Of a DNA stretch of 35,841 bases, positions 18,549 through 32,978 are shown one piece after another (within the stretch, counting starts at the first letter, position 1; each line of letters opens with the position of its first letter). The position numbers and the translations under genes are program-made. The notes below the pieces were generated by a model. It did no database searches. It was not told where the DNA came from and was given only the letters and a program-made list of their open reading frames with translations. The stretch spans positions 1 to 35,841 of IMG/VR virus record IMGVR_UViG_3300021960_000238; one strand, written 5' to 3'. The stretch is from a virus.

Positions 18549-19159
18549 TAGCTGTTGACGCTGATCAGCGTTCAGACGAGTGGCATGCTGCTCGTCTGGG
18601 CATACCTACGGCTAGTAACTTCAAGAGAATTATTACTGGCACCGGCAAGGCTTCTACTCAGATTGACGATTACATGGACGAGCTCTTAACGGAGCGCCTT
18701 ACTGGCAGGCGTGAAGAGATTTACGTCACCGAGGATATGCAGTACGGGATCGACAACGAGCCCAATGCTAGGGCGTGGTATGAGTACGTCAGCGGTAATC
18801 CCGTTGAGGAGATTGGCTTGTGCCTGCACGACAGCATTAGAGCGGGCGCGTCTCCTGACGGCCTTGTAGACACAAAGGACGGCAAGGGTTGCGTCGAAAT
18901 CAAGTGTCACCGCAAGCCAAAGAAAATAGTCAAGATGCACCGGGAGCAGAAGGTGCCTGTGGAGCACATACCGCAGATACAGGCGCAGCTTTGGGTGCTC
19001 GGTCCTGAATATAAATTTTGCGACTTTGTTGCATGGTCTCATGAGGTGAAACCATTCCGCATGCGTGTAGAGCGGGACGATAAGTACATCGAGAAACTTG
19101 AGCAGCTTGTTGCTGATATGGTTGCGGATCTTGATACATGGGAGGAAAAGCTGTGCTGA
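18545..19159 (+). CDS. YqaJ/lambda-exonuclease-like recombinase
   Basis: This 204-residue protein matches the YqaJ PD-(D/E)XK family: QRSDEWHAARLGIPTASNF (about 8-26), GIDNEPNARAWYEY (Glu72 region), AGASPDGLV with Asp105 and VEIKC with Glu118 and Lys120, then EHIPQIQAQLWV. It should resect double-stranded ends 5' to 3', supplying single strands for the adjacent annealing protein. Its ATG overlaps the annealase stop by four bases. Length is normal for the family. Confidence 0.87.
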   Translation: MIAVDADQRSDEWHAARLGIPTASNFKRIITGTGKASTQIDDYMDELLTERLTGRREEIYVTEDMQYGIDNEPNARAWYEYVSGNPVEEIGLCLHDSIRAGASPDGLVDTKDGKGCVEIKCHRKPKKIVKMHREQKVPVEHIPQIQAQLWVLGPEYKFCDFVAWSHEVKPFRMRVERDDKYIEKLEQLVADMVADLDTWEEKLC

Positions 19160-19356
19160 CACTGTGTGAGCATGCGTTTAAAGAACGCTACGGAATGGAG
19201 CTCAAGAACGTTTCAGACGTAGCTAGAGATCTCTGGGTATCAGGCTGGAATGCTGGCCTGCAGCAGATGAAGAGCCAAGCAGATATACTGATTGGTGAAA
19301 CTAACCGGCTCGAAGAGCCAAAGAAAGAGGAAAAGAAATATGACTTCTCAATATGA
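19153..19356 (+). CDS. Small helical protein of the recombination operon
   Basis: I start this gene at GTG 19153 because GGAGGA at 19141-19146 sits six bases upstream, whereas ATG 19138 has no ribosome site. The 67-residue product (VLTLCEHAFKERYG...) has a helical core with WVSGWNAGLQQMKSQADILI and an acidic/basic EEPKKEEKKYDFSI tail. Function unknown. It overlaps the exonuclease by seven bases and the SSB-like gene by 17 bases. Confidence 0.55.
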   Translation: MLTLCEHAFKERYGMELKNVSDVARDLWVSGWNAGLQQMKSQADILIGETNRLEEPKKEEKKYDFSI

Positions 19357-19555
19357 CAATAAGAACAAGGGTGCTTTGTGGGTTAACCAGAACAAATCCG
19401 AAGACAAGCATCCGCATTTTACCGGCGAGATAGATGTCGAAGGCAAGGTGTACAGAATAGCTGGCTGGAAGAAGGACAATCCTTCAGGTAACCAGCCTGT
19501 AATGTCACTGCAGGTTTCAGAACCGCAAAAGAAAAATGACGGTATACCATTCTAA
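19340..19555 (+). CDS. Small SSB-like protein with IPF tail
   Basis: I start at ATG 19340, after an AGAGGAAAAG ribosome site, giving 71 residues. NKNKGALWVNQNK is followed by HFTGEIDVEGKVYRIAGWKKDN, a pattern of small phage OB-like proteins. The last residues, NDGIPF, resemble the C-terminal tip of bacterial SSB that recruits partner enzymes. In a recombination operon next to an annealase this could be a mini single-strand-binding or SSB-mimic protein. The DNA-binding role is inferred. Confidence 0.6.
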   Translation: MTSQYDNKNKGALWVNQNKSEDKHPHFTGEIDVEGKVYRIAGWKKDNPSGNQPVMSLQVSEPQKKNDGIPF

Positions 19556-19776
19556 TGTTTTCTTTAGGCGATCAATTGTACAAGGGCCGGTTAGACGCCG
19601 GCCTGACTCAACAGCAGGCAGCCGATATCTTAGGCGTTAGCAGGCAGCAGTTTGGCAGGTGGGAGAATGCAGACGATCTCAAGGTGTCTGTGTTTATTGA
19701 CTGCTGCCTGGCCATGGGTATGGATGTGGAGAGTGAATTCAATGTGGCACTCAACAGTTTGGTGGACCAACGTTAG
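19555..19776 (+). CDS. Cro/CI-type HTH DNA-binding protein
   Basis: This 73-residue protein is a single HTH_3 domain: DQLYKGRLDAGLTQQQAADILGVSRQQFGRWENAD spans helices 1-4, with LTQQQAADILGVSRQQFGRW as the HTH. It has no peptidase or multimerisation domain, so it is Cro-like or an excisionase-free regulator. It overlaps the SSB-like stop by one base. Candidate targets are the repeats in 17763-17942. Confidence 0.8.
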   Translation: MFSLGDQLYKGRLDAGLTQQQAADILGVSRQQFGRWENADDLKVSVFIDCCLAMGMDVESEFNVALNSLVDQR

Positions 19777-19789
19777 TGAGGAGAATGGT

Positions 19790-20206
19790 ATGCCTCAAGG
19801 GCAATTCTGGATAGTGAATAGCGATGATGCTCTGAAGAAATTTCAGCAGCACATAGAGGAAGTTTACAAGAAGGATCGTTACCTTACAGTAACCTGGGAG
19901 AGCGGCAAGAAGCGCAGTCTAAAGCAAAACTCTGCGCTGCATGTCTGGTGCTCTGCCCTGGCTGATACTCTGAACGAGAAGGGCTTGGACATGCGTAAGG
20001 TCATCAAGGCTGATGTGGATATTCCTTGGAATAAGCAGTCAGTCAAAGACTACATATTCAAGCCTGTTCTGGAGGCGATGACCGGCGCCGATTCTAGTGC
20101 AGACGCGGAGAAGGTAGATTACATCAAGGTCTACGAGACGCTGAACAAGCACCTGGCTGAGAAGTTTGGTGTGCATGTTCCGTGGCCGGTCAAGAAAAAT
20201 GAATAA
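19790..20206 (+). CDS. Conserved recombination-region protein (NinB position)
   Basis: I start at ATG 19790 because GAGGAG sits about seven bases upstream; the longer open frame before it is a shadow of the HTH gene. The 138-residue protein has WESGKKRSLKQNSALHVWCSALADTLNE, then ADVDIPWNKQSVKDYIFKPVLEAMTG and LNKHLAEKFGVHVPWP. These resemble a widespread phage family found where ninB occurs in lambdoid phages. Identity with NinB itself is uncertain. Confidence 0.55.
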   Translation: MPQGQFWIVNSDDALKKFQQHIEEVYKKDRYLTVTWESGKKRSLKQNSALHVWCSALADTLNEKGLDMRKVIKADVDIPWNKQSVKDYIFKPVLEAMTGADSSADAEKVDYIKVYETLNKHLAEKFGVHVPWPVKKNE

Positions 20207-20720
20207 GGTAGTGATTGAGATACCTGCTCTCTGGTGGCACATCGTTGATGAGCTGCCAGAGAAGCTATCTGAGCGATCAATCAATTCATGGTCCAGCAAG
20301 GCTGGGATACTCGGAGAGCTCGCGGTTGTTCAATATTTCAACGCAGAGGGCATTGATTATGAGTATGTTGCCCAGGATAACTTTTCCTGCGATCTGATCT
20401 GTAACGGCCGCAAGGTAGACGTTAAGACCACTGAGCGCCGCGGGTTTGCTAGTGACTTCAACAATGCTCTGCTCACTGATTACCAAAAAGAGCAGGACTG
20501 CGACACCTACATTTTTACGAGCATTCCCAAAGACAAGGGACTTGTTGAGATAGTAGGCTATTGTGACAAGAAATGGTTCTGGTCAAACAACTACGCCAGA
20601 GACCTAGAGGCCGGTGAGAAGGTTGCTGTGAATGCGGTCAAGGAGCCCTGCAGGATCTTGAAGTACGGTTACTTAGCTGACATATATCAGATAGGGAGTG
20701 TGCTGCGTGACTACCACTAG
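20199..20720 (+). CDS. Putative PD-(D/E)XK nuclease-like protein
   Basis: I use ATG 20199 (MNKVVIEIPALW), which overlaps the previous stop by eight bases. The 173-residue protein has GILGELAVVQYF with Glu40, SCDLICNGRKVDVKTTE with Asp65 and the D74-V-K76 motif, consistent with a PD-(D/E)XK fold. YIFTSIPK and VEIVGYCDKKWF follow. It could resolve DNA structures or process ends. No sequence-specific restriction partner is adjacent. Fold inferred from motif spacing. Confidence 0.6.
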   Translation: MNKVVIEIPALWWHIVDELPEKLSERSINSWSSKAGILGELAVVQYFNAEGIDYEYVAQDNFSCDLICNGRKVDVKTTERRGFASDFNNALLTDYQKEQDCDTYIFTSIPKDKGLVEIVGYCDKKWFWSNNYARDLEAGEKVAVNAVKEPCRILKYGYLADIYQIGSVLRDYH

Positions 20721-21285
20721 AAGATGCTCGATGTGCCGGAAGAAGGTAAACGCTGAGTGTGCGGTGTTTGCTGGGATCAAAGCGTTCTGCTGCTGGGAGC
20801 ATTTATTTGAGTGGACCAAGACAGAATCTGCCAGAAAGCTTGCAGAGAAGTCTAGACGCAAAGAGATAACCGAGCAGCGCAAAAGGCTGTCTAGGCGCTC
20901 TGAGGTGCTCAAGAAGGCTCAGATGGCCTTTAACCTGTACATTCGGGTCCGAGATCAGAATAAGCCTTGTATCTGCTGCGCCAGGCCGCTAGAGGGTGAT
21001 GCGATTGGCGGCAAGTATGACTGCGGGCACTACAGGTCTGTTGGCAGCTGCAACTCCCTGCGTTTCGACACCAGGAATGCCCACGGCCAGCTGAAACACT
21101 GCAATAACTATCTGGGCGGTAACGTCGTTGAATATCGCAAAGGGTTGATCAGAAGGTTTGGTCAGCAATTTGTTGAGGATCTTGAGAGCGATACGACAAC
21201 GCGCAAGATGACAAAGGACTACCTGGAGCGCATAGCCAAGGTGTTTAACAAGAAAGCGCGGCTCTACCGTAGAAAATTTAGGTGA
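20707..21285 (+). CDS. ninG: NinG-like Holliday junction protein
   Basis: The 192-residue protein matches NinG/Rap. Paired cysteine motifs occur at the N-terminus (CSMCRKK) and in the middle (CICCARPLEG), followed by YDCGHYRS, SLRFDTRNAHGQLKHCNNYLGGN and VEYRKGLIRRFG. Lambda Rap is a structure-specific endonuclease acting on recombination junctions. I prefer GTG 20707 because AGGGAG at 20692-20697 is properly spaced for it; GTG 20698 would be too close. It completes an exonuclease/annealase/resolvase set. Confidence 0.83.
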   Translation: MTTTRRCSMCRKKVNAECAVFAGIKAFCCWEHLFEWTKTESARKLAEKSRRKEITEQRKRLSRRSEVLKKAQMAFNLYIRVRDQNKPCICCARPLEGDAIGGKYDCGHYRSVGSCNSLRFDTRNAHGQLKHCNNYLGGNVVEYRKGLIRRFGQQFVEDLESDTTTRKMTKDYLERIAKVFNKKARLYRRKFR

Positions 21286-21543
21286 TAAAAAAACCGCCTC
21301 GATACTGCTAAGGCGGAAAGAATCTCAAGGGAAGGCTGGGCCGCTTTGATAGCGAGAAGCGGAAATGTCAAAGGTAGGACCAAGTGGGAGTGGAGAGACT
21401 TTGACACACCAGCCGACCAGGAGTATAACACACAACCCGGTGTGGTGAATCCTGACCGGAAAAAACTCAAGGATAATGCAGACAGGTTGCTGAAAACCTG
21501 GATAGCAAAATGCCACGGGCGTGACGGGACCGGCCAAAGATAG
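21282..21543 (+). pseudogene. Small gene with probable frameshift in an A-run
   Basis: From 21287 a reading frame runs open to TAG 21541-21543 and encodes RLDTAKAERISREGW, then WEWRDFDTPADQEYN and a Lys-rich end, which reads like real protein. It has no normal start except TTG 21346. GTG 21282, overlapping the ninG stop in this genome's usual style, would be in frame if the seven-A run at 21287-21293 were one base shorter. So this is either a frameshifted gene, a sequencing error or a TTG-started protein of 65 residues. Confidence 0.4.
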
Positions 21544-21656
21544 CGAGATCTGAGGCACAAACCTGGTTAGCGGACACGATGGAGGCTCGACGCGGCTACC
21601 AATGGATGGTGAAGGCGTTCAGGCAAATTGGCATTTTTGGACTACGCAACTACTGA
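21510..21656 (+). pseudogene. Short ORF interrupted by one in-frame TGA
   Basis: ATG 21510 opens a frame with TGA as the fifth codon (21522-21524), then 43 protein-like codons (RPKIARSEAQTWLADTMEAR, ending FGLRNY) to TGA 21654-21656. ATG 21579 could give only the last 25 residues. The overlap with the upstream frame follows the gene-coupling pattern seen elsewhere. It may be a decayed or mis-sequenced gene, not a functional one as read. Confidence 0.35.
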
Positions 21657-21711
21657 ATTTCACTGATGGTGTCCCTAACCGTCAAAAGACTAGTATTGCC
21701 GGGAGAAAAGT
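21657..21711. other. Short gap before the helicase
   Basis: No gene or confident promoter is visible. GGGAG near 21699-21703 is a suitable ribosome site for ATG 21712. Confidence 0.5.
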
Positions 21712-23187
21712 ATGGTCGAGCTCAGACCGCATCAGATCAAAGCTATTGAAATGATCCGCGACAGCATGAGGCGCGGCAACAAGCGAGTAGTGCTCGGAGC
21801 TGCCTGCAGCTTTGGCAAGACGCTAACCGCGGGCGCTATCGCTGAATCTGCAGTCAAGAAGGGCAAGCGGGTTCTGTTTGTCTGTGACCGGATCCAGCTA
21901 GTCAATCAGACTCTCAATGCTTTCGACAGTCAGTACCTCAGACCTGGCGTGATCCAGGGCGAGCACTGGCGCAATGACCCAGACGCATCCGTACAGATCG
22001 CAAGCGTACAGACACTGGCAAGGCGCCGGCATATGCCTAACGTCGATCTGGTGATCCAGGATGAGTGCCATGTTATGTACAAGACCATGCGGGACATCAT
22101 GCAGCTCTGGGATCTGGTGAATTTCATAGGGCTCTCAGCCACGCCGATGAGCAAGGGCATGGCCGCGCCCGGCTTATGGCAAGACCTAGTGGTCCCAATC
22201 ACTACCGCAGAGCTGCAGGAGCAGGGCTACCTGTGCCCGATTGAGGTCTACGGCGGCCGTCAGATTGATGTCTCGAAGGTGCGGTCAAAGGGTATTGGCA
22301 CCGGAGGCAGTGACTATGACCCGGTGCAGCTCTCCGAGGCTGTCGAGCAGGATCAGGATCTTGTTGGCGATGTTGTGTCTAACTGGCTGGCTCACTGCAA
22401 GGGTAGGCAGACAATCGCATTCTCTGCGTCTATCGCGGCGTCTAAGTCCCTGGTAGAGCTCTTCCTAAAGAATGGCATACCTGCAGCTCATATTGACGGC
22501 TATATGGACCCTAAGCTGCGTGAGGAGCTCATGCAGAAGCATGACAGCGGAGAGATCGTCATACTCAGCTGCAGCCAGCTGCTGGACACCGGGTACGACG
22601 CGCCACAGGTATCTGCCTGCATAGACCTCTATCCTACTAAGTCGATCATCCGGCATTGTCAGAAGATTGGACGCCTGGCCAGAATATGCGAGGGCAAGGA
22701 GAACGCAATCGTGCTGGACCATGCAGGCAATCACCTACGCCATGGCTTCACCGACATGATCGTCCCTAAGCGGCTTGATGACGGCACTGGGCGCTTTGAC
22801 GAGAAGAAGCAAGTCAAGAAGGAGAAGGAGCCCAAAGAGCCGCGGGAATGCCCGAGCTGCAAGAAGCAGTTTGTCGGTCTGCGCTGCAATGGTTGCGGCT
22901 ACGAGATCGTGATCCGTCACGATATGCACGGAGATAAGAGCATGCTCAAGAAGCTGAACCGGGAAGACACCAGGGAGAGCAAGCAGGAGCTGTTTGCCGG
23001 GTTGCTGCATTACGCCAGGGCTCATGGATACAAGGAGGGCTATGCATCCTACGCCTATCGAGAGAAATATGGTGTCTGGCCGAACCAAATAAAACGCGGA
23101 ATTAGGCCAAAACAAAGCCAAAAAGCCGACGATTGGGTAAAACACTTGAACATAAAGCGAGCAAAATCAAAGCGTTACGGCACATAA
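21712..23187 (+). CDS. SF2 DEAD-box-type helicase with zinc ribbon
   Basis: This 491-residue helicase is of the ResIII/SSL2-like superfamily 2 type. It has RPHQIKAIE (Q-like motif, 5-13), an unusual Walker A AACSFGKT (30-37), DECH (117-120), SAT (142-144), TIAFSAS, LLDTGYDAP and motif VI QKIGRLAR (317-324). A zinc ribbon CPSC...CNGC (380-395) follows. It could unwind replication or recombination intermediates, like phage UvsW-type helicases. It lacks a primase or polymerase neighbour, so host replication proteins may be recruited. Confidence 0.87.
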   Translation: MVELRPHQIKAIEMIRDSMRRGNKRVVLGAACSFGKTLTAGAIAESAVKKGKRVLFVCDRIQLVNQTLNAFDSQYLRPGVIQGEHWRNDPDASVQIASVQTLARRRHMPNVDLVIQDECHVMYKTMRDIMQLWDLVNFIGLSATPMSKGMAAPGLWQDLVVPITTAELQEQGYLCPIEVYGGRQIDVSKVRSKGIGTGGSDYDPVQLSEAVEQDQDLVGDVVSNWLAHCKGRQTIAFSASIAASKSLVELFLKNGIPAAHIDGYMDPKLREELMQKHDSGEIVILSCSQLLDTGYDAPQVSACIDLYPTKSIIRHCQKIGRLARICEGKENAIVLDHAGNHLRHGFTDMIVPKRLDDGTGRFDEKKQVKKEKEPKEPRECPSCKKQFVGLRCNGCGYEIVIRHDMHGDKSMLKKLNREDTRESKQELFAGLLHYARAHGYKEGYASYAYREKYGVWPNQIKRGIRPKQSQKADDWVKHLNIKRAKSKRYGT

Positions 23188-23291
23188 AAATATTTAATAA
23201 ATTTGCATCAAAAAGGTTGCATAACGGGTCAGGGTTTGAGACGATACGTTTGTGGGGCGGCAACGGGCCAAACCAAAACGGAGAAAAACGA
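23188..23291. other. Intergenic region after the helicase
   Basis: This 104-base gap is AT-rich at its start and has two TTGCAT copies (about 23201 and 23218). I find no promoter with good -35/-10 spacing. GGAG near 23279-23282 serves the next ATG. Confidence 0.4.
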
Positions 23292-23513
23292 ATGAACTTA
23301 CAAACAGCTAGACAAATTTTAGATCAACAACAAACAGAGCGTCACTCAATCGCTCGATCTGAGTCAAATAAGAATGATTGGCAAGTTTGGTGGGACGGCA
23401 TAAAACTAGCTGATGGTCTGGCATCAAAAGAGTCGGCCAAAGACTGGGCAGCACAGATGGACATTGAATTCGCAAAGAATTTGATCATACCCGCCGAGCA
23501 ACGGCGCTCATAA
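23292..23513 (+). CDS. Small early-region protein
   Basis: I start at ATG 23292, since a ribosome-site-like GGAGAAA precedes it and the upstream frame is not protein-like. The 73-residue product has a Gln-rich helix (LQTARQILDQQQTERHS), then WQVWWDGIKLADGLASKESAKDWAAQ, resembling small phage proteins with a strand-loop WxVWWDG. Function unknown. Confidence 0.5.
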   Translation: MNLQTARQILDQQQTERHSIARSESNKNDWQVWWDGIKLADGLASKESAKDWAAQMDIEFAKNLIIPAEQRRS

Positions 23514-23521
23514 GCAAACCT

Positions 23522-23580
23522 ACAGCAAATAAAACCAGACCCGCTTAACTGCGGGTTTGGCAGTAGAAGCAACAGCAAAT
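23522..23580 (+). repeat. Hairpin flanked by 9-base direct repeats
   Basis: ACAGCAAAT occurs at 23522-23530 and 23572-23580. Between them CCAGACCCGC (23535-23544) pairs with GCGGGTTTGG (23551-23560) with one G-T wobble around a six-base loop. No T-run follows, so it is not a standard terminator. Confidence 0.65.
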
Positions 23581-23598
23581 TAACTTAGGAGATAGCGA

Positions 23599-23811
23599 AT
23601 GAGCGCAAACATCAATTGTCACCGGGTAGTAGAGGTTAAGGTTAGCCAGGATAGTTACTGGATTGAGTTTGAAATAATCGATAGTAGAGGATCGGTAACA
23701 GAGGTCACTGCGTTTGCTGGCACCAGCAAATCCGATGACGAAAGGAGCTCGGATGCCCGTAAGATTCTTGTTGGTCTCAAAGAGCAAATCGATAAATTGT
23801 TAAGCGAGTAA
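23599..23811 (+). CDS. Small early-region protein
   Basis: This 70-residue protein (beta-rich start, then SDDERSSDARKILVGLKEQIDKLL helix) is preceded by TTAGGAG about nine bases before the ATG. No family recognised. It is the first of a tight series of small genes to 25094. Confidence 0.5.
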   Translation: MSANINCHRVVEVKVSQDSYWIEFEIIDSRGSVTEVTAFAGTSKSDDERSSDARKILVGLKEQIDKLLSE

Positions 23812-23823
23812 GGGAGAGTGGAG

Positions 23824-23976
23824 ATGTACATGACGAGGATAACGTATCACTACGGCTACGGACCGTCTTACACGGTTAGGCTTCATAGGTCTTTGTTCAA
23901 GAAGGTTTATGGTCCAAAACTGCGTAGGCAATTCAGGAAATCCATTGTCGGCTACTATGTAGCTGCAGGTCTGTAG
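23824..23976 (+). CDS. 50-residue basic Tyr-rich protein
   Basis: This short gene encodes MYMTRITYHYGYGPSYTVRL and a basic tail with KKVYGPKLRRQFRKS and YYVAAGL. AGGGAG (23811-23816) precedes ATG 23824 by seven bases; ATG 23830 is an alternative. The high Tyr and Arg/Lys content suggests nucleic acid or membrane contact. Function unknown. Confidence 0.45.
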   Translation: MYMTRITYHYGYGPSYTVRLHRSLFKKVYGPKLRRQFRKSIVGYYVAAGL

Positions 23977-23985
23977 GAGATGTGT

Positions 23986-24273
23986 ATGACTAAGAGATCA
24001 ATGGCAGCAGGGCATTTGGTAAACAAGATCAACAGATTGATGCCGGAAGCCAATGCAGTTAAACGCGCAGAGTGGGATGGTTGTGACAAGGGCATATGGC
24101 TCAAGGGTAGCGAGAGCTATCATGAGGGAGAGCGGATCTTTGATTATTATCGATGGGATCCTGTGCATGCTTACACAATTCATCCTAAGCTGCGCGAGAT
24201 CATTGATGACGCGGAGTGGTACTCAGAACCAAATGACCCTGGTACACTAATGCTGTGGCCGGGCTACGAATAA
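23986..24273 (+). CDS. Small early-region protein with Trp/acidic C-terminal half
   Basis: I choose ATG 23986 because GGAG (23976-23979) is six bases upstream; ATG 23980 is too close. The 95-residue product starts with a basic helix (MAAGHLVNKINRLMPEANAVKR) and is then acidic and Trp/Tyr-rich (WDGCDKGIWLKGSESYHEGERIFDYY). No family recognised. It could be a host-interaction protein. Confidence 0.45.
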   Translation: MTKRSMAAGHLVNKINRLMPEANAVKRAEWDGCDKGIWLKGSESYHEGERIFDYYRWDPVHAYTIHPKLREIIDDAEWYSEPNDPGTLMLWPGYE

Positions 24274-24292
24274 CCAAGTGAGGAGAAAACGA

Positions 24293-24652
24293 ATGACAGA
24301 CGAAAAAAAGACCTTCAAAGAGATCAGCTCTCTGATTTACGACAACCTGGACAGCATTATCCGGTATGGCGAATACGAGCCTACCGACGAGGTTTTGGAT
24401 CTTGTGCTTCAGGCGCTGATGCTTACCGAGCCCGCGGTAGATATTTACTTTGATGCGGTAGACGGCAGTCACACCTTGGCAGCGATGCGTATCGAGGCCA
24501 TGCTCAGCGGCAAGCAATCAGACAAGGATGCTGCAGACCGCAGAGAAGCGAATCTGCTGCGAGAGTATGCCAAGATCAGGCTAAGCTACTACGAAGACCT
24601 TATCTGGCATGAGTGGCACCAGGTCGCTAAGCCTTTGAGGTTGGCCCAGTGA
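24293..24652 (+). CDS. Helical early-region protein
   Basis: I start at ATG 24293, seven bases after GAGGAG. The 119-residue product is strongly helical and acidic in the middle (YEPTDEVLDLVLQALMLTEPAV), then Arg/Lys-rich (DAADRREANLLREYAKIRLSYYEDL). I do not recognise it. Overlap with the next small frame suggests an operon. Confidence 0.5.
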   Translation: MTDEKKTFKEISSLIYDNLDSIIRYGEYEPTDEVLDLVLQALMLTEPAVDIYFDAVDGSHTLAAMRIEAMLSGKQSDKDAADRREANLLREYAKIRLSYYEDLIWHEWHQVAKPLRLAQ

Positions 24653-24675
24653 GGCTAGAAAAGGGAGCAGTGGCC

Positions 24676-24834
24676 ATGATCGGCTTCTGCTTCCTTGTGG
24701 TTTTTGTGACGTTTATGACCGTCAAGATTGTGCAATCTAGGGTGATGCGTAAGCAGGTCTGTGAGCAAAGGCATGCCTGGGAAGAAACTGGTCATGAGTA
24801 TGTTGGGATCCCGTTTGGATCAAGTGACTGCTAA
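24676..24834 (+). CDS. Single-span membrane peptide
   Basis: I start at ATG 24676, eight bases after GGGAG, rather than GTG 24649 with no ribosome site. The 52-residue peptide has one transmembrane segment (MIGFCFLVVFVTFMTVKIV) then a charged cytosolic or periplasmic tail with two cysteines. It could be an early membrane-acting protein, e.g. superinfection-related; function unknown. Confidence 0.5.
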   Translation: MIGFCFLVVFVTFMTVKIVQSRVMRKQVCEQRHAWEETGHEYVGIPFGSSDC

Positions 24835-25094
24835 TGAAGAAACCAGTGTTCAAAACACCCATCACACCTGTGTCTGACCCGGTAAACAGCCCGGCTCACT
24901 ATGCTAACCAGGGCATTGAGTGCATTGACTACATCAAGCAGCAGCTCAGCGGCGAGCAATACCTGGGCTATCTGCTTGGCAATGTCACAAAGTACATTCA
25001 CCGGCATAACTACAAGAACGGTCTGGAAGATCTTAAAAAGGCCCAGTGGTACCTGGACAGATATGTCTCAGAGTATCCTGGCAAACAAGAATAG
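24834..25094 (+). CDS. DUF3310 protein
   Basis: This 86-residue protein matches DUF3310: DPVNSPAHYANQGIECIDYI (about 16-35), YLLGNVTKYIHRHNYKNGLEDLKKAQWYLDRYV. The family occurs in many phages; T7 gp1.7, a nucleotide kinase, is its relative in some annotations, but kinase activity here is unproven. The start overlaps the previous stop by one base. Confidence 0.78.
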   Translation: MKKPVFKTPITPVSDPVNSPAHYANQGIECIDYIKQQLSGEQYLGYLLGNVTKYIHRHNYKNGLEDLKKAQWYLDRYVSEYPGKQE

Positions 25095-25102
25095 GTGATA
25101 GC

Positions 25103-25516
25103 ATGCACGAGTATTTTTGCGAGATAGAAAGGATAATAGATGCCGACAGTTATCGCGTTGCCATTGATTGTGGTTTCGGTATTTCTTTTCGGACCACTAT
25201 TCGCCTGGCTGGAGTGGACACACCAGAGAGCCGGACACGAGATAAGACCGAGAAGATCTACGGTAAGGCTGCAACAGCTTTCGCCAAGGAGCACTTGAAG
25301 TACGGGCTTAGATACCGGATAAAGACAGAGAAGGCGGGTAAGTTTGGCCGCTACCTTGGATATATTTACGTTGATAAGAAAACCAGCATCAATCAGCTAC
25401 TTATTGATAACCATCACGCAGTGGAGTACAACGGCCAGTCAAAAGCGGATGTAGCAAGGCTTCACCTAATGAACCGGGAGATCCTCAGACTCGAAGAAAC
25501 TAATTTGCTGGTATAA
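25103..25516 (+). CDS. SNase-type nuclease
   Basis: I start at ATG 25103, the first methionine after the DUF3310 stop. The 137-residue protein is an OB-fold Ca-dependent nuclease of the staphylococcal type. IIDADSYRVAID holds the metal Asp, RLAGVDTPESR gives Arg34, Asp39, Thr40 and Glu42, and GKFGRYLGYIYV supplies Arg83. No signal peptide, so it acts inside the cell, perhaps degrading host DNA or processing phage DNA. The downstream consensus promoter -10 overlaps its last codon. Confidence 0.82.
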   Translation: MHEYFCEIERIIDADSYRVAIDCGFGISFRTTIRLAGVDTPESRTRDKTEKIYGKAATAFAKEHLKYGLRYRIKTEKAGKFGRYLGYIYVDKKTSINQLLIDNHHAVEYNGQSKADVARLHLMNREILRLEETNLLV

Positions 25517-25517
25517 T
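25512..25517 (+). promoter_or_regulatory. Consensus -10 element of a putative late/packaging promoter
   Basis: A perfect TATAAT (25512-25517) has a TG extension at 25509-25510 (TGGTATAAT). No good -35 is visible 17-18 bases upstream. Transcription would start near 25524 and enter a structured leader before the packaging genes. Confidence 0.55.
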
Positions 25518-25677
25518 ACGGTTTTGCCGAAGCGCCAGCCGGCGGTGCGTGGGATCATTCGCCCGAAAACACCGGCAGCTCAAGGCAGTTGTATGGCATA
25601 GCAGTTTTTTCTGCGTGTCCTCCCTGCTGGGCTTGAGCCGTTTGGCCCACGAGACGGGCCATTTATTTGGAGGTAAC
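25518..25677 (+). ncRNA. Hairpin-rich leader upstream of packaging genes
   Basis: This 160-base non-coding stretch contains several inverted repeats. CGGTG 25543-25547 pairs with CACCG 25570-25574, CTCAAG 25579-25584 with CTTGAG 25632-25637, and GCAG 25601-25604 with CTGC 25611-25614 around six T. TGGCCC 25643-25648 pairs with GGGCCA 25656-25661, followed by an AT-rich TTTATTT. It could be a structured 5' leader, an attenuator or a packaging-recognition site. No tRNA pattern is seen. Confidence 0.45.
25643..25668 (+). terminator. Terminator-like hairpin ahead of the DUF6321-like gene
   Basis: A six-base-pair stem (TGGCCC / GGGCCA, seven-base loop) is followed by TTTATTT just 17 bases before ATG 25678. 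The stem is short and the T-run is broken, so it may act as an attenuator or simply a structural element around the GGAGG ribosome site. Confidence 0.35.
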
Positions 25678-25938
25678 ATGGCGAAACCGAGAAAAGGCAA
25701 GGCTAAGGTCAAGGTCACTAGCAGCGGCAAGCGCGTAAGCTATGGTCAGTCAGGCCGGGCAAAGGATGGTAGTCGGCGAGTACAGCCGGGCACCAGCAAG
25801 GGTGACAGCTACTGCGCCCGGAGCCTGGGTATCAAGAAGCGACTGCCAAAGAGCAAGCAGAATGATCCGAACACGCCAAACAACCTGAGCAGAAAGAGGT
25901 GGAAGTGTAAGGGCGCCAAGTCGATGAGGTCTAAGTAA
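25678..25938 (+). CDS. Basic DUF6321-like protein of the packaging region
   Basis: I start at ATG 25678 after GGAGG. The 86-residue protein is Lys/Arg-rich, with SGKRVSYGQSGRAKDGSRRVQPGTSKGDSYCARSLGI and NDPNTPNNLSRKRWKCKG. This pattern is common in marine phages next to terminase genes (DUF6321, from memory). It could bind DNA or the packaging motor. Function unknown. Confidence 0.7.
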   Translation: MAKPRKGKAKVKVTSSGKRVSYGQSGRAKDGSRRVQPGTSKGDSYCARSLGIKKRLPKSKQNDPNTPNNLSRKRWKCKGAKSMRSK

Positions 25939-26129
25939 TGCCAAAGAAAGGTTTGTACGCTAACATCCAGGCTAAGCGTAAGCGCATCAAGAAGCAGAAG
26001 AAGGAGGGTAAGACTCCTGAGAAGATGCGTAAACCGGGCGAGAAGGGCGCTCCAACTGCAGCTGCATTCAAAAAAGCTGCGAAGACTGCAAAGAAGAGGA
26101 AGAAGACCAGTGCCAAGAGTAGGAAATAA
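25938..26129 (+). CDS. Small basic conserved protein (MPKKGLYANI type)
   Basis: This 63-residue protein starts MPKKGLYANIQAKRKRI and continues with PEKMRKPGEKGAPTAAAFKKAAKT and a Lys-rich tail. I recall this small, highly basic family from many marine phages, usually next to packaging genes. It overlaps the previous stop by one base. Role unknown, perhaps DNA binding. Confidence 0.7.
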   Translation: MPKKGLYANIQAKRKRIKKQKKEGKTPEKMRKPGEKGAPTAAAFKKAAKTAKKRKKTSAKSRK

Positions 26130-26211
26130 AGAATACCCGTACACGCCTGCAGGCAGAGCTGCTGCCCGTAAGGTTGCTGCAAAGAAAAAGAAAAAGAAGA
26201 AGCGCAGCTAG
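26110..26211 (+). CDS. 33-residue very basic peptide (MPRVGNKEYPYTPAG type)
   Basis: GTG 26110 starts a frame encoding MPRVGNKEYPYTPAGRAAAR and a poly-Lys end before TAG 26209-26211. GAGGA at 26096-26100 is a suitable ribosome site. The peptide resembles other tiny MPRVG-type phage proteins I recall near packaging genes. It overlaps the previous gene in a different frame. Real expression is likely but unproven. Confidence 0.55.
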   Translation: MPRVGNKEYPYTPAGRAAARKVAAKKKKKKKRS

Positions 26212-26219
26212 GACACAAG

Positions 26220-26387
26220 GTGAGTCAGGTGCCGCTAACCAGGGACGAGATCGCATCCTTGCTAGTTGACCATGGCTTCCCTATCGGAGACATGAGCTGG
26301 TTCGATGAGGCTTTGCAGATCGCAAGGCTGGTTGAGTCGGCTCATGGTATATCTATGTTCGGAAGAGATGAAGATGGCGAAGACTAA
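26220..26387 (+). CDS. 55-residue acidic protein before terminase
   Basis: GTG 26220 with AGGA (26210-26213) six bases upstream opens a 55-codon gene: MSQVPLTRDEIASLLVDHGF, then SWFDEALQIARLVESAHGI and an acidic tail (RDEDGED). It overlaps the small terminase start by 14 bases. A helical mini-protein of unknown function, in contrast to its basic neighbours. Confidence 0.5.
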   Translation: MSQVPLTRDEIASLLVDHGFPIGDMSWFDEALQIARLVESAHGISMFGRDEDGED

Positions 26388-26781
26388 CCCGGTTGGCAGA
26401 CCTACCAAGCTTACAGATGAGCTGATGGACAAGGCTAAGGTCTATGTGCAGAAGGATTATCTGATCGACGAGCTGATCCCAACCATGCAGGGATTGGCTC
26501 TTTATCTGCAGGTCAACCAGGATACGGTCCACGATTGGCGCAACAAGAATGAAGAATTTTCCGAGATCACCAGGGATTTGATGGCGCTGCAGGCCAAGAA
26601 CCTGTTCAGAGGCGGCCTCACAGGCGATTTCAACGCTTCTATCACCAAACTGCTACTTACCAAGCATGGTTTCTCAGATCGCGTTGAGCAGGATCTGAAG
26701 AGCTCTGACGGCACTATGCAGCCGACACAGATAGTCCTGAATGGCGTGAGAGCCGATGAGCGCATCGATAAGCACGATTGA
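26374..26781 (+). CDS. Small terminase subunit, P22 gp3-like
   Basis: I start at ATG 26374, seven bases after GGAAGAG. The 135-residue protein has NPVGRPTKLTDELMDKAKVYVQ, then IPTMQGLALYLQVNQDTVHDWRN (an HTH for DNA recognition), and LFRGGLTGDFNASITKLLLTKHGFSD, as in P22 gp3-type DNA packaging proteins. It would recognise the packaging site and regulate the large subunit, whose gene overlaps by 26 bases. Confidence 0.82.
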   Translation: MAKTNPVGRPTKLTDELMDKAKVYVQKDYLIDELIPTMQGLALYLQVNQDTVHDWRNKNEEFSEITRDLMALQAKNLFRGGLTGDFNASITKLLLTKHGFSDRVEQDLKSSDGTMQPTQIVLNGVRADERIDKHD

Positions 26782-28039
26782 TATCCCGGACCCGCTGGTC
26801 CCTGTATTCAGCGGCAAGGCTAGATTCCGCGGTGCCTACGGCGGCAGAGGATCTGGCAAGACTAGAACGTTCGCCCTGATGACCGCTATCCGCGGCTACC
26901 AGGAAGGCATGTCAGGCCGTGAAGGGATCATACTCTGTGCCCGTGAGCACCTGAACTCCCTGGATGAGTCCTCTCTTGAAGAGATCAAGGCCGCTATCAG
27001 CTCTGTGGATTGGCTGGCGGATTACTACGAGGTCGGCGAGCGATACATACGCAGCAAGGATGGCCGCATCTCCTATGCCTTCTCAGGGCTCCGCAGGAAC
27101 GTAGACAGCCTGAAGTCAAAGAGCCGGATCCTGTTGTGCTGGGTTGACGAGTCAGAGAGCGTCAGCGAGACAGCCTGGCAGAAGCTTATCCCGACGGTAC
27201 GAGAGCACGACTCTGAGATCTGGGTAACATGGAACCCGGAGAGTAAGGAGTCAGCTACGCACAAGCGGTTCAGGGAGAACCCGCCCGAAGACAGCAAGAT
27301 CGTTGAGATCAACTGGCAGGACAACCCATGGTTCCCTGATGTGCTAGAGCAGGCCAGGCTAGAAGACCTAGAGAAGCGGCCGCATATCTACCCGCATGTC
27401 TGGGAGGGCGACTTTGTTATCCACGTTGAGGGCGCCTTCTACGCCATGGAGATGCTGGAGGCTAAGTCAGCGGAGCGCATAACTGCGGTCCCGTATGACA
27501 AGAGCGCGGCAGTGGTGACAGCTTGGGACTTGGGCATGGCCGATACTACTGCGATTTGGTTCGCGCAGTTTATAGGCAAGGAGGTCCGCGTCATTGACTT
27601 CTATGAGAACTCAGGGCTCGCGCTAGACCACTATGTCCAGGTGCTGCAGGGCAAGGGCTACACTTATGACCAACACATCCTGCCGCATGATGTCCGGGTC
27701 AAAGAGCTCGGGACCGGCAAGTCCAGGCTAGAGGTGCTGCAATCACTTGGTCTTACCAGTGTCGATGTTGCTCCAATGCTAGGCGTTGAGGATGGTATCC
27801 AGCAGGTCAGGTCTATGATCCCGCGGTGCTGGTTCGATGCAGACAAATGTGAGCGTGGCATTGATGCGCTGCGCCAGTATCGGCGCGATTGGGATGAGGC
27901 TGGTAAGCACTGGCGAGGCAGGCCGCTGCACGATTGGAGCTCTCACGCGGCAGACGCATTTCGCTACCTGGCGATAGGTTACAAGCCGGCCAACTCTTGG
28001 GGCGCACCAATACGCAGAGGCATCAAGGGAGTGGTCTAA
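26756..28039 (+). CDS. Large terminase subunit
   Basis: The 427-residue packaging motor has Walker A GGRGSGKT (29-36), Walker B ILLCWVDESE (125-134) with catalytic Glu132, and the coupling motif WVTWNP (156-161). The C-terminal RNase H-type nuclease has Asp258 (TAWDLGMADTTAI), VIDFYEN and HDWSSHAADAFRY (Asp400). It hydrolyses ATP to drive DNA into the procapsid and cuts the concatemer. Paired with a gp3-like small subunit, headful packaging is plausible. Confidence 0.92.
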   Translation: MSASISTIDIPDPLVPVFSGKARFRGAYGGRGSGKTRTFALMTAIRGYQEGMSGREGIILCAREHLNSLDESSLEEIKAAISSVDWLADYYEVGERYIRSKDGRISYAFSGLRRNVDSLKSKSRILLCWVDESESVSETAWQKLIPTVREHDSEIWVTWNPESKESATHKRFRENPPEDSKIVEINWQDNPWFPDVLEQARLEDLEKRPHIYPHVWEGDFVIHVEGAFYAMEMLEAKSAERITAVPYDKSAAVVTAWDLGMADTTAIWFAQFIGKEVRVIDFYENSGLALDHYVQVLQGKGYTYDQHILPHDVRVKELGTGKSRLEVLQSLGLTSVDVAPMLGVEDGIQQVRSMIPRCWFDADKCERGIDALRQYRRDWDEAGKHWRGRPLHDWSSHAADAFRYLAIGYKPANSWGAPIRRGIKGVV

Positions 28040-28044
28040 ATCGT

Positions 28045-28052
28045 GATATACT
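28045..28052 (+). promoter_or_regulatory. Extended -10-like sequence directly before ATG 28059
   Basis: TGATATACT contains TATACT at 28047-28052. Transcription would start at or next to the ATG, and no ribosome site precedes this gene. Weak evidence for a leaderless transcript. Confidence 0.3.
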
Positions 28053-28058
28053 CCACAG

Positions 28059-28544
28059 ATGGCTGATCAAGATACATTTGCCCAAATGGGCCTGCTGAGC
28101 AAGATGGGCTCCCTACTTAGAGGAGCTGGTCTTGGTTTCAAGTACGCACAAAAGAACTTCCCTGAATACGCTGAGCATGGCGCCTATCCGAACCAGATTA
28201 GACGCAAGCTTGAAGAGACTTACCCGGACCTTGGCACCAAGCGAATCAATTTCGGACCGCTAGACACTGCGATCAGCTACGCAGGAGCCTATGATTGGGC
28301 TGTCAGGCCGCATGTGGAGCCGCAGGACGCACGAAACATGGCCAAGGCATACCAACTAGCGGACTACATGAACCCGGGCAGGCAGGACAAGGCTGCAGAG
28401 GTTGCGGACTACATCGATAACATGGCTGGCGTGGAGGCTGGCATACTGGACCGGGCAGCAGGCAACCGGCTCAGCGACAGGGATTTGATGGCTGCAGCGT
28501 ACAGGTACGCAATGCAGCGCCAGGCAGAGAGGTCTGGTCAGTGA
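28059..28544 (+). CDS. Unknown protein after terminase
   Basis: This 161-residue protein has an amphipathic N-terminal region (LLSKMGSLLRGAGLGF), then KINFGPLDTAISYAGAYDW-type segments and a helical, Ala-rich C-terminus (DRDLMAAAYRYAMQRQAERS). No family recognised. No ribosome site precedes the ATG. It begins a block of unknown proteins lying between terminase and the adaptor. Confidence 0.55.
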   Translation: MADQDTFAQMGLLSKMGSLLRGAGLGFKYAQKNFPEYAEHGAYPNQIRRKLEETYPDLGTKRINFGPLDTAISYAGAYDWAVRPHVEPQDARNMAKAYQLADYMNPGRQDKAAEVADYIDNMAGVEAGILDRAAGNRLSDRDLMAAAYRYAMQRQAERSGQ

Positions 28545-28720
28545 CTCTCTGCGGTGACTGCTGGATCCGGTTCTCTGACCCGGAATGCAGGCACCTGACT
28601 GACAAGGAAAAGCTGCGCCTCAAGATTCAGGCGGATACTGATGAGTATCTGAGACGCGGCGGTAAGATCACCACTATCAACCAGATTGTAGTAGGACATG
28701 TGAAATGCCACAGGAAATGA
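28541..28720 (+). CDS. 59-residue Cys-containing protein
   Basis: GTG 28541 follows GAGAGG by eight bases and overlaps the previous stop. MTLCGDCWIRFSDPECRHLTD could hold a small zinc site (C-x2-C-x9-C-x1-H), and DEYLRRGGKITTINQI resembles a motif of small phage regulatory proteins. The final 16 bases overlap the next gene. Function unknown. Confidence 0.5.
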   Translation: MTLCGDCWIRFSDPECRHLTDKEKLRLKIQADTDEYLRRGGKITTINQIVVGHVKCHRK

Positions 28721-29871
28721 TTCCAGCGACACCGACTCTGCGAGAGAGAGCCTACTCAGGTATTCTCAGCGCATTAGGAGGCGGGTCAGATCCTACGGTA
28801 CGGCGCCGAGCAGGTATGCTCACAGGCGTTCTAGACTTCATTCCGGGCTTTGCTACGCCCGCGGACTTCTCTGATGCCAGGCAGATGATTGGCGAGGGTC
28901 AATATGTCCCTGGACTGCTAACCGGAGGCATGGGCATGATGGGCGCGATACCCGGAGTCGCTGCAGCGAATAAAGCCCTGAAGCCGGCAGGCAGGAAGCT
29001 TCTCTATCCAGACAACAGCATCAGCAGGCTAGACTTTAACAACCCGGCACTGATGAGCGCGGAGAGACAGCAGGAGATTAGGAACTCTGAGGCATTCTCA
29101 AGAGGTCTTGATAGGTTTCCGTCAGAGGATATCCAGAGGCAGTCAGCAGAGCTCAATGAGGCTTTGTACCAGGGACAGATAACGCCAGAGCAGTTTCAGT
29201 CAAGCATGTCAGAACTTAGCCCGATTAGGCCGATACAGGGCGTTCCGCAGCTAGAAAGCTGGGAGAATATCGTTGCGTCGATCCCAGCTGGATTTACAAA
29301 AAAGGGCATCATAGGTCTATTTGATGATGTCGTGAAGGCCGGCGACAGAGTGGCAAGCAGGCTAGATATCAATGCCTACAAGAATTTTGATAAATGGGTA
29401 GTTGCGTTACACGGCCCTGGAAGCGGCGGCAAGGCTGTTGGCTACGGCAAGAGCGCGGTTCTCGATAACGTTGATTTCACTTCCAGCCCGGAGTTTTTCA
29501 TGCGAGTAGGCAGGCAAGACAAGCAGAAAGGCCCGCTGGCCAGGATGGAAGGTAACTGGGTCGATGTATCGCCAGAGCAAGCATACGACATGGCCCTAGA
29601 GGCTGATCAGTCAGGTGATTGGGTTGAGGTAGGGTTCAACCCTGACCGAGCATCCTACTTCTACGACAAGGCTTCAAGGCAGCCTCTGGCTAGTGCCCAG
29701 AGAATCATTCAGATAGGCCCGAAGGTTCTGGCAACCAAGCCGGTCTACAGACAGCTCAGGGATCCCGCGCATGCCGTGACAACTGCGTCAGGCGAAACCA
29801 CTTACAGATCAATTGCTGCGCCAGGAATACTGGGCGCCGGCATGATGGCTACGCAGCAGGAGGAGCAATAA
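28705..29871 (+). CDS. Putative co-injected protein with polyvalent-protein-like C-terminus
   Basis: This 388-residue protein begins with LRERAYSGILSALGGG, then a Gly/Met-rich hydrophobic stretch (GLLTGGMGMMGAIPGVAAA, about 73-91) that could insert into a membrane. The C-terminal part (GDWVEVGFNPDRASYFYDK, then IIQIGPKVLATKPVY) resembles a segment I recall from large polyvalent phage proteins. Such proteins are usually packaged and injected. No enzyme motif is clear. Confidence 0.5.
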   Translation: MPQEMIPATPTLRERAYSGILSALGGGSDPTVRRRAGMLTGVLDFIPGFATPADFSDARQMIGEGQYVPGLLTGGMGMMGAIPGVAAANKALKPAGRKLLYPDNSISRLDFNNPALMSAERQQEIRNSEAFSRGLDRFPSEDIQRQSAELNEALYQGQITPEQFQSSMSELSPIRPIQGVPQLESWENIVASIPAGFTKKGIIGLFDDVVKAGDRVASRLDINAYKNFDKWVVALHGPGSGGKAVGYGKSAVLDNVDFTSSPEFFMRVGRQDKQKGPLARMEGNWVDVSPEQAYDMALEADQSGDWVEVGFNPDRASYFYDKASRQPLASAQRIIQIGPKVLATKPVYRQLRDPAHAVTTASGETTYRSIAAPGILGAGMMATQQEEQ

Positions 29872-31358
29872 TGCCACGCAAAGCTGCTTTTGATGTTATC
29901 AAAGATGCGCTGGAGTCGGCCGGATCCTCTATAACTAATAGATTGGTAGATTTGGGTTATTTGGACTCAAGCCTAACAACAAACCCAACTCAAATATCCA
30001 GAGCAACGACAAGATACAAAAACAACCTGAAGAATTCTGGTTTTAGAAATAGGGAGCTAACAGGAGCGGAAAACCAGTTTCAAACAAGCTTTGAGAAAGC
30101 AGACCTTGGCCCTCAAGTTATTGCGGACCTGGACAGCTTGCAGGGAAGCATCTTGAATGCAGTGCAAGGAGATCAGTCTGATATAGGTTTGTTATCAATG
30201 GTTGGCGGTCATCCTGTAAATGTAGATGTACAGGGTGGGTATAATTTCCCGAAACGCTACGCTAATCAGCGTGTTGGATGGGCTTCAAACAAAGGGCAAG
30301 CACAAGGCGTTTTGCAAAAAGGAAGAAATTTGCAAGAAGTCAATCCCGGCAGGGACGTTATTAATATTTACAATGCTATGGGAGCTGAAGCGACTAATTT
30401 TAGCGTTCCTCCCACAGAGTCAATATTAATTCAAATACAGAACAATGACCTTATACCAAAGTCTGTTAAGAACGATTTTGATAGAAAATTAAGAGCAATA
30501 TATCCGCAGTGGGTCGGGTTAGATGACCCTAGGGCTTTAGATCAGTTAACAGGAACTGGAGAGTTTGCGGGTAAGGCTATTGGTAAAATGCGTACCGCAT
30601 TTGTAAAAATTGCTGAAGGCGCTCCTTTTGAATCAAGAGGATTCCCGTCAACAAAAGAGACGATGCGTTCGATCAATGCTCCAGAGCTGGCCGGCAGCAA
30701 TTTAGGAGATGCCGGTTTGTCTATGCACAGGCTGGACACTTCTAGAGATATAGAGCCATCAGATTTGCATGGATCATATTCGCATATAGTTTTTGGTGAT
30801 TATGTTGGTGGAACTCCGCGTGGTGTGCCTTTTGAGGTTATGTTTCCCGATGCGTATGAAACTATTAGCCGAGACGTAAACAAACATGGCGCACCGTTGA
30901 AGAGAAACGAAATAATTAATGCAATAAACACGAGAGGGAGGGCGGGAAATTTTGATGATAAGACCAGAAGGAAGGTTGAGGGAATAACTCAGATAGCTGA
31001 TCAGAAGTGGATTGACACTGTTAACACTTATCTAGAAAAAGGAACCTTGCCTGCTGCGTTGTCTAGCGTCGGGTTGTTGGGATTGGCGTCTGGACCAGAG
31101 GCTCAGGCTGCCGCAATGTATGACAACATTTCAAGAAATGCGCCAGGATCAATCAGGGCGCCGAGATCAGGAATGGCGGCTAGTGCTGCAAACGCCATGT
31201 CAGCTTACAATGAATTTGCTCAGGATCCTAATAGGTCTGGTTTGTTAGGATACTTATTACCAACTGCTCCTGCAGATTGGATGAGAAAGGTCGCGTATGG
31301 CGATAATGTAAGCATGATGGATCGAACGGGCGCAGCGGCAGGACTATTAGGATTCTAA
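29871..31358 (+). CDS. Putative co-injected protein, AT-rich gene
   Basis: This 495-residue protein contains YNAMGAEATNFSVPPTESIL and PQWVGLDDPRALDQLTG followed by MRTAFVKIAEG, a pattern recalled from large polyvalent phage proteins. The C-terminal region has LSSVGLLGLASGPEAQAAA (membrane-like) and ends in AAAGLLGF. The gene is visibly more AT-rich in codon choice than 26756-29870 and than the adaptor after it. It may be a recently acquired cargo gene. Function unknown. Confidence 0.5.
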   Translation: MPRKAAFDVIKDALESAGSSITNRLVDLGYLDSSLTTNPTQISRATTRYKNNLKNSGFRNRELTGAENQFQTSFEKADLGPQVIADLDSLQGSILNAVQGDQSDIGLLSMVGGHPVNVDVQGGYNFPKRYANQRVGWASNKGQAQGVLQKGRNLQEVNPGRDVINIYNAMGAEATNFSVPPTESILIQIQNNDLIPKSVKNDFDRKLRAIYPQWVGLDDPRALDQLTGTGEFAGKAIGKMRTAFVKIAEGAPFESRGFPSTKETMRSINAPELAGSNLGDAGLSMHRLDTSRDIEPSDLHGSYSHIVFGDYVGGTPRGVPFEVMFPDAYETISRDVNKHGAPLKRNEIINAINTRGRAGNFDDKTRRKVEGITQIADQKWIDTVNTYLEKGTLPAALSSVGLLGLASGPEAQAAAMYDNISRNAPGSIRAPRSGMAASAANAMSAYNEFAQDPNRSGLLGYLLPTAPADWMRKVAYGDNVSMMDRTGAAAGLLGF

Positions 31359-31360
31359 CC

Positions 31361-31981
31361 ATGGCTATAACTAACTACAGCGAACTCAAGGCATCCGTGG
31401 CAGATTGGCTGAACCGGGATGATCTGACTTCCGCTATACCTGACTTTATTACACTGGCAGAGGCTCAGATGGAGCGCGATGTCAGGCACTGGAAACAGAT
31501 GCAGAGATCAGAGGGTCAGATAGACACTCGATACTCTCAGCTGCCTGCTGACTTCTACGAGCCCATACGCTGGCACTTGGATGACGGGAGCTCAACCAGG
31601 CTTGAGCTGATCAGCATGGAGGACATGCTGCAGTTTCGCATGGAGTCCAGGGACGCTATGGGTAAACCGAAGTATTACTGCATGACGGGAGACGCCTTGG
31701 AGGTGTACCCGACACCAGACACAACCTACAGCTCGGAGCTCTTGTATTACACCACTCTGCCGGCCCTGTCTGACTCCAACACTACCAACTGGTTGCTGGA
31801 TCACAGCCCGGACGCATACCTGTATGGAGCCCTTCTGCAAGCTGCTGCATATCTCAATGATGACGCCAGGGTGCCTACCTGGAGTGTGTTATACTCTGGA
31901 GCTGTGCAATCGATAAACAATCAGAGCAACAAAGCTAGGCATGGCGGCTCTGGACTACGAATGAAGATCAGGAGTTACTGA
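31361..31981 (+). CDS. Head-tail adaptor, SU10 adaptor-like
   Basis: This 206-residue protein matches the SU10-type adaptor pattern: ITNYSELKASVADWLNRDDL, IPDFITLAEAQMERDVR, LPADFYEPIRWHLD and LLDHSPDAYLYGALLQAAAYLND. Adaptors of this type bind the portal and provide the tail attachment surface. It agrees with the SU10-type capsid. It precedes tail genes with a one-base overlap. Confidence 0.78.
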   Translation: MAITNYSELKASVADWLNRDDLTSAIPDFITLAEAQMERDVRHWKQMQRSEGQIDTRYSQLPADFYEPIRWHLDDGSSTRLELISMEDMLQFRMESRDAMGKPKYYCMTGDALEVYPTPDTTYSSELLYYTTLPALSDSNTTNWLLDHSPDAYLYGALLQAAAYLNDDARVPTWSVLYSGAVQSINNQSNKARHGGSGLRMKIRSY

Positions 31982-32364: not shown

Positions 32365-32367
32365 TAA

Positions 32368-32976: not shown

Positions 32977-32978
32977 AA

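Follow-up and report, generated by a model that had tools for sequence, protein, structure and literature searches.

A putative pseudoknotted RNA related to Proteo-phage-1 in the leader before the packaging genes of a phage

Introduction

In phage lambda the pR′-tR′ late leader (6S RNA) places a promoter, a short RNA and a terminator at the early/late junction, and its action depends on Q protein together with a site in the DNA. Proteo-phage-1 (Rfam RF03044) is a known phage RNA for which, to our knowledge, no function has been explained; our literature search found no description of it, the original publication lying outside that search. The put element of phage HK022 consists of two stem-loops of about 70 nt, present in two copies behind the early promoters (PMC9378689), and T4 gene e provides a precedent for sequestration of a start site (PMC3014915).

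Here we consider a leader of 166 nt (25512-25677) in a viral DNA of 35,841 nucleotides (IMG/VR record IMGVR_UViG_3300021960_000238), the whole of which we call the window. Like put it would be a phage leader RNA of similar length placed before terminators, but it carries a predicted pseudoknot, in one copy per record, instead of two stem-loops in two copies. It resembles lambda pR′-tR′ in the combination of promoter-like box, putative short RNA and terminator-like hairpin at the early/late junction; unlike in lambda, no Q homologue was recognised among the proteins examined here. As in T4 gene e, the predicted transcription start falls within the upstream strand of a predicted helix lying over a start codon, although this helix spans about 150 nt, the promoter is of another type and there are no compensatory changes. 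With Proteo-phage-1 the leader shares a P2 loop AGCCGG..RGUG, an A-rich linker, a tail AACaCCGGCAGC able to pair with the loop and its occurrence in phages.

Results and discussion

The locus

The leader is located at the replication/packaging (early/late) junction of the phage, approximately 630 bp upstream of the small terminase gene (Table 1). An earlier note on this DNA had proposed a structured RNA leader at this junction, worth a covariation test, and the proposal is borne out by compensatory changes in a wider class of RNAs. Inverted repeats of the kind that it described are present (25578-84/25632-38, 25643-48/25656-61 and GCAG-TTTTTT-CTGC at 25601-25614), the extended -10 box spans the SNase stop codon as described, and the terminator-like hairpin lies immediately 5′ of the Shine-Dalgarno sequence. 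The product of the downstream gene, called DUF6321-like in that note, gives no Pfam match at E ≤ 0.001. For 78 of 80 viral loci with a relative of this gene the upstream DNA was compared with the leader, and with the exception of L001 it is unrelated (by eye and blastn). Over 590 relatives of the 86-residue protein occur in viral contigs, and in several of the 80 loci the gene stands directly behind a terminator-like hairpin. The frame of this gene is open back to 25549 but the variable columns display no codon pattern by eye, and coding within the leader was rejected.

Table 1. Features of the leader and its surroundings; positions are those of the window
Feature	Start	End	Strand	Basis
Upstream gene, SNase (PF00565)	25103	25516	+	Pfam match
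Extended -10 box TGGTATAAT, predicted start 25524-25526	25509	25517	+	Single match; chance expectation 0.96
Complement of 25679-25689, in the start codon region of the 86-residue protein gene	25519	25529	+	Fold, inverted repeats, shuffles
Predicted P2 helix, 25532-25535 with 25547-25550	25532	25550	+	Both changes in relatives keep pairing; class covariation
Class core AGCCGG-C-GGTG ... AACACCGGCAGC	25537	25579	+	0/100 shuffles; model R1 match
Predicted pseudoknot helix PK, 25538-25542 with 25572-25576	25538	25576	+	Invariant in relatives; middle pair C-G or U-A in class
Small inserted hairpin GGG...CCC between P2 and A-rich linker	25551	25564	+	Fold
Predicted P3 hairpin, outer helix 25578-25584 with 25632-25638, enclosing six-T hairpin 25601-25614	25578	25638	+	Fold, inverted repeats
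Terminator-like hairpin 25643-25661 and TTTATTT tail (TTCATTT in relatives)	25643	25668	+	
Shine-Dalgarno GGAGG (25669-25673) and ATG start codon (25678)	25669	25680	+	Sequence
Downstream gene, basic protein of 86 residues	25678	25938	+	ORF translation
Small (PF16677) and large (PF04466) terminase genes	26305	28039	+	Pfam matches

The -10 box is the single match in the window to the sigma-70 extended -10 pattern TGNTATAAT. It is kept in all six known leaders (four distinct sequences), no -35 box is seen upstream of it, and it may have arisen by chance. The terminator-like hairpin, of six pairs, is weak and in the relatives weaker still; in the region 18001-35841 terminator-like sites are not enriched, with 14 found and 14.6 expected.

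Nested folding and close relatives

By simple folding energy the leader is unremarkable, and the earlier description of it as the most structured non-coding DNA of the window has to be given up. The interval folds at -60.0 kcal/mol compared to a mean of -55.7 kcal/mol for 30 dinucleotide shuffles (z -0.88), and in a scan of 649 segments of 166 nt on the + strand, ranked by z against dinucleotide shuffles, 212 are equal or better (28 by raw folding energy). Values of -0.72 and +0.95 are obtained on folding from 25524 and on folding 25400-25760. With the start codon included (25512-25690) z reaches -3.00, because 25519-25529 then pairs with 25679-25689 in one long-range helix. Nested folding cannot display the real structure of the leader, a pseudoknot. 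The strongest fold of the scan is a hairpin within 13476-13700 (13531-13696, z -7.5), just behind the major capsid gene (12606-13568), and is probably a terminator or processing site of that gene.

Other candidates were set aside. An antiterminator pairing of 25548-53 with 25646-51 is disrupted in L001 and L083, and weak Rfam matches of the window to anti-hemB, mir-72 and SorY score at chance level. A DNA pattern search with the hairpins only returned, beyond the known kin, just coding or chance matches.

Five further viral contigs carry the leader with 94-97% identity (blastn), making four distinct sequences in all. Twenty of the 22 base pairs examined are invariant and two vary on one side with pairing kept; the sequences are too alike for covariation to be read from them. 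The covariation check suggested in the earlier note thus gives no compensatory changes among these few near-identical relatives and a positive answer in the wider class. The six-T loop reads TTTTCC in L001, L083 and L084. The first two also have approximately 1 kb extra before the DUF3310 gene, between the counterparts of 24821 and 24881. Two of the nearest contigs, L096 and L037, have their first bases no more than about 40 nt from the start of the 86-residue protein gene (window 25695-25718); the structured leader might have caused this during assembly, or it might hint faintly at a genome end.

The pseudoknot and Proteo-phage-1

The leader is modelled as an H-type pseudoknot (P2 and PK) followed by the long hairpin P3 and the terminator-like hairpin. 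In the window as in its relatives the sequence allows both P2 and PK to form, and a predicted hairpin comes immediately after the pseudoknot. The block 25537-25579 fits AGCCGG-N-RGTG...AACNCCGGCAGC, which none of 100 dinucleotide shuffles of the window does. The blocks AGCCGGCGGTG and AAAACACCGGCAGC of the window match the loop and tail of Proteo-phage-1, for which the consensus in the alignment shows AGCCGG..AGUG in the P2 loop and, as a tail that could pair with this loop, CCGGCAGC. The genome of a distant small-terminase relative, which scores 31.9 bits against RF03044, likewise has pairing letters, AGCUGA in the loop and UCAGC in the tail. We do not claim the pseudoknot as unreported, because the Rfam structure line cannot show pseudoknots.

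Against RF03044 itself the window scores 14.3 bits (E 2.6; gathering cut-off 42 bits) and four relatives score 14.1-14.3 bits, the poor match taking in an unbroken 14-letter identity with the 3′ end of the model, where it is conserved. The P1 hairpin 5′ of P2 is absent from this alignment of the window, which has just 6-8 nt between the predicted start and P2. The cut-off is passed by all seven P1-bearing loci and by none of the 25 compact loci; three loci of other kinds also fall below it. The window further differs from Proteo-phage-1 in a spacer one base shorter than the two-base form, an inserted hairpin and its own promoter-like box. Inserts at the position of this hairpin occur also in L518, L523, L547 and L554. 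Given the failure at the cut-off and a match to our own covariance model, R1, the window lies outside Proteo-phage-1 as curated and inside a wider class that includes it. Judged by sequence, its RNA appears to be a diverged, compact variant of the Proteo-phage-1 type.

The wider class

Two pattern scans of viral contigs, with two-base and one-base loop spacers, gave at least 120 matches each, and the window fits the one-base form. Among 240 matches listed there are 165 distinct elements; 134 of these have a P2 of at least 4 bp with no pairing filter applied, and slid controls give 5, 7, 7, 7, 8 and 30. An earlier P2 figure of 146/152 cells is biased, its elements having been pre-selected for at least three pairs (82 of 120, thinned to 38). 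Coding coincidences or open-frame matches (L349, L428 and L341; L362, L391 and L396) are kept in the 134/165 count and in the count of following hairpins below, whereas in the terminator, -10 and flank counts they are dropped only where P2 is shorter than 4 bp. In L362, L391 and L396 the members lie inside long open frames and retain a perfect P2 helix.

A structural alignment holds 69 sequences (67 distinct), those passing E ≤ 1e-4 out of 77 sources chosen by us. P2 and PK are 98.3% paired in it, with 51 both-side changes compared to 17.4 after shuffling, and pairing falls to 13-58% when the helices are slid by 1-3 columns. P2 covariation is established by these data.

The scan patterns had fixed the PK letters and PK was therefore tested separately. 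A scan requiring a T-A middle PK pair matched 66 viral contigs. In the 24 that have a P2 of at least 4 bp the free outer PK pair is GC 20 times, AT three times, GT once and A-C never; in the remaining 42 that position is A-C 20 times. A pattern free at both PK positions matched 55 of 249 Pseudomonas genomes, and among the 30 loci listed there are 23 distinct elements, 12 with P2 and none of these with a PK mismatch, two of the 12 resembling coding sequence in our judgement. PK thus contains a covarying pair.

Model R1 was trained on 32 members, this phage and its kin being excluded. Its sole match in the window up to E 10 is at 25528-25579 and scores 43.9 bits (E 3.4e-11, a rough value); four relatives score 43.5-43.9 bits. 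A hairpin directly behind the pseudoknot is general, being found in 144 of 162 members with enough sequence, compared to 208 of 495 random sites (among the matches listed). Of 32 long motif-bearing records 22 match the compact model, each with exactly one copy; the other 10 carry a longer-loop form that this model scores poorly.

The same pseudoknot is carried by hundreds of other phages, as viral contigs. A real, conserved RNA structure is present in the leader, a chance origin is refuted at the class level, and we are highly confident that the leader belongs to this class.

Genomic settings

The settings of the class vary. In Pseudomonas phage phiAH14a the element follows NinB, NinG and a 228-residue protein and precedes holin and terminase, a position corresponding to that of the late promoter and leader in lambda. 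Pseudomonas phage PS-1 has it in a leftward operon between repressor and recombination genes. It stands directly before a small terminase in L394, after an HTH protein gene and ahead of one for a transcriptional regulator in L365 and L353 (one protein per locus scanned), and in mid-operon in, for example, L450, L463 and L511. Members are often intercistronic, 10-20 nt behind a stop codon. A riboswitch for one metabolite was rejected, the neighbouring genes being too diverse. Where a flank could be assigned a coding strand, this agrees with the strand of the element in 189 cases and is opposite to it in 67 (256 in total, among the matches listed).

Processing signals occur near some members. 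tRNA genes lie close upstream in L339, L378, L379, L422, L537 and L525, and T-loop-like letters are found upstream of 6 of 226 members compared to 12 of 4520 random sites (among the matches listed). L560 has a type II hammerhead ribozyme (RF02276, 51.5 bits; 7649-7719, minus strand) 77 nt downstream of its member. Other Rfam phage RNAs (RT-15, int-alpA) are present in class-bearing contigs (L470 1190-1381; L519 7060-7127; L463 9764-9831).

Within 350 nt behind the element a terminator-like hairpin is seen for 88 of 218 members with enough sequence and for 145 of 1522 random sites (among the matches listed); the window and its kin contribute four of the 88. Sixty-two of the 88 terminator-like hairpins are 100-149 nt behind the pseudoknot, those listed being nearly all from the P1-bearing Pseudomonas group. 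Boxes of the -10 type are not enriched upstream of the class (223 members among the matches listed), which leaves most of the class without a recognisable promoter.

Possible function

The best explanation, which we favour tentatively, is a compact, discrete RNA of the Proteo-phage-1 type that acts on a conserved host partner. Transcription from the -10-like box to the downstream terminator would yield a separate RNA some 145 nt long. Polymerase reading through the weak terminator would continue into the packaging genes, and the RNA, instead of controlling one downstream gene, would bind a conserved host machine for transcription, translation or RNA turnover. A working promoter and terminator, a free RNA molecule and its binding to a host machine are what we infer. 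The discrete, trans-acting mode taken by itself is possible, and we hold it a shade more loosely. The single copy, the many positions, the constant 3′ ends within one group and the processing signals near some members favour a discrete RNA with a conserved host partner. The terminators at 100-149 nt, the upstream tRNA genes and the L560 ribozyme argue for a discrete RNA; the one copy per record in 22 of 32 records and the widely differing neighbours argue for action in trans. Several observations point the other way. The three members inside long open frames do not suit a separate RNA gene, the fixed-distance terminators listed come nearly all from one Pseudomonas group and the terminator here is weak, the -10 boxes are not enriched and that of the window is possibly due to chance, and the members are mostly co-oriented with the operon (189 of 256 flanks, among the matches listed), as a cis element would be.

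In its widest form this explanation would make the class a very widespread set of free, pseudoknotted phage RNAs, terminated or excised in any operon, that in trans, during infection, bind a single conserved host machine. Proteo-phage-1 would be the P1-bearing fraction and the window a compact version equipped with a promoter and a terminator; we regard the whole as somewhat unlikely. That hundreds of phage contigs keep a structured RNA beside differing genes, at one copy per record where copies were counted, points to a host target common to these phages and to a phage function of a general kind. The pseudoknot model, the compact variants below the Rfam cut-off and the named phages phiAH14a and PS-1 make the function testable in culturable Pseudomonas phages.

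The attenuation or antitermination reading of the earlier note, put-like antitermination included, is possible. One version of it, which we consider unlikely, is that the nascent pseudoknot acts in cis on polymerase, in the manner of HK022 put or lambda pR′-tR′, for read-through of 25643-25668 and of later terminators in the packaging operon. The position at the junction here and in phiAH14a, where the element comes after NinG and ahead of holin and terminase, is consistent with this, as are the element directly before the small terminase in L394, the terminators behind the element and the co-orientation with the operon. The single copy per record is less so, HK022 having two put sites downstream of its early promoters (PMC9378689), and the element is far from a promoter in the leftward operon of PS-1 and in mid-operon in other members.

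It is less probable again that the pseudoknot marks an mRNA processing or stability boundary, blocking exonucleases or guiding cleavage such that parts of a transcript decay at different rates. Intercistronic positions, often 10-20 nt behind a stop codon, the tRNA and ribozyme neighbours and conservation whatever the next gene would all suit such a role. Several members, however, are placed just before a terminator, where guarding downstream mRNA makes little sense.

Translational gating is possible for the leader, and a start-codon sequestration resembling that of T4 gene e might add a third layer in this phage alone, yet as the explanation of the leader we judge it improbable. Read-through transcripts would hide the start codon of the 86-residue protein in the helix 25519-29/25679-89, and transcripts from about 25524, lacking the 5′ arm, would be translated. 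The predicted cost of opening -10 to +6 drops from 6.1-10.5 to 2.9-4.4 kcal/mol in six of six leaders (four distinct), a drop reached by 1.3% of shuffles. The first 12 nt of the leader make 10.0 expected pairs with the gene start, and 0 of 600 leader shuffles make as many, with the caveat that the pairing was noticed before being tested. On the other hand the read-through opening cost is ordinary (58% of shuffles are as high), two one-sided changes leave the helix intact, another disrupts an end pair and none is compensatory, and the mechanism needs a promoter that is possibly due to chance and is not common to the class.

A DNA packaging (pac/cos) site, an option of the earlier note to which the nearby small terminase gene lends itself, or a chance set of inverted repeats, with which the unexceptional nested folding would agree, is highly improbable; the packaging site is not supported, since the leader is absent by blastn beside terminases 82-84% identical (large terminase, loci L113-L130), and for both options the element recurs in phages with differing neighbours and its covariation reflects selection on RNA pairing. 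R1 likewise gave no match in six searched loci of that set, weak matches in the contigs of L114 and L124 (16 bits) being judged from their sequence to be chance.
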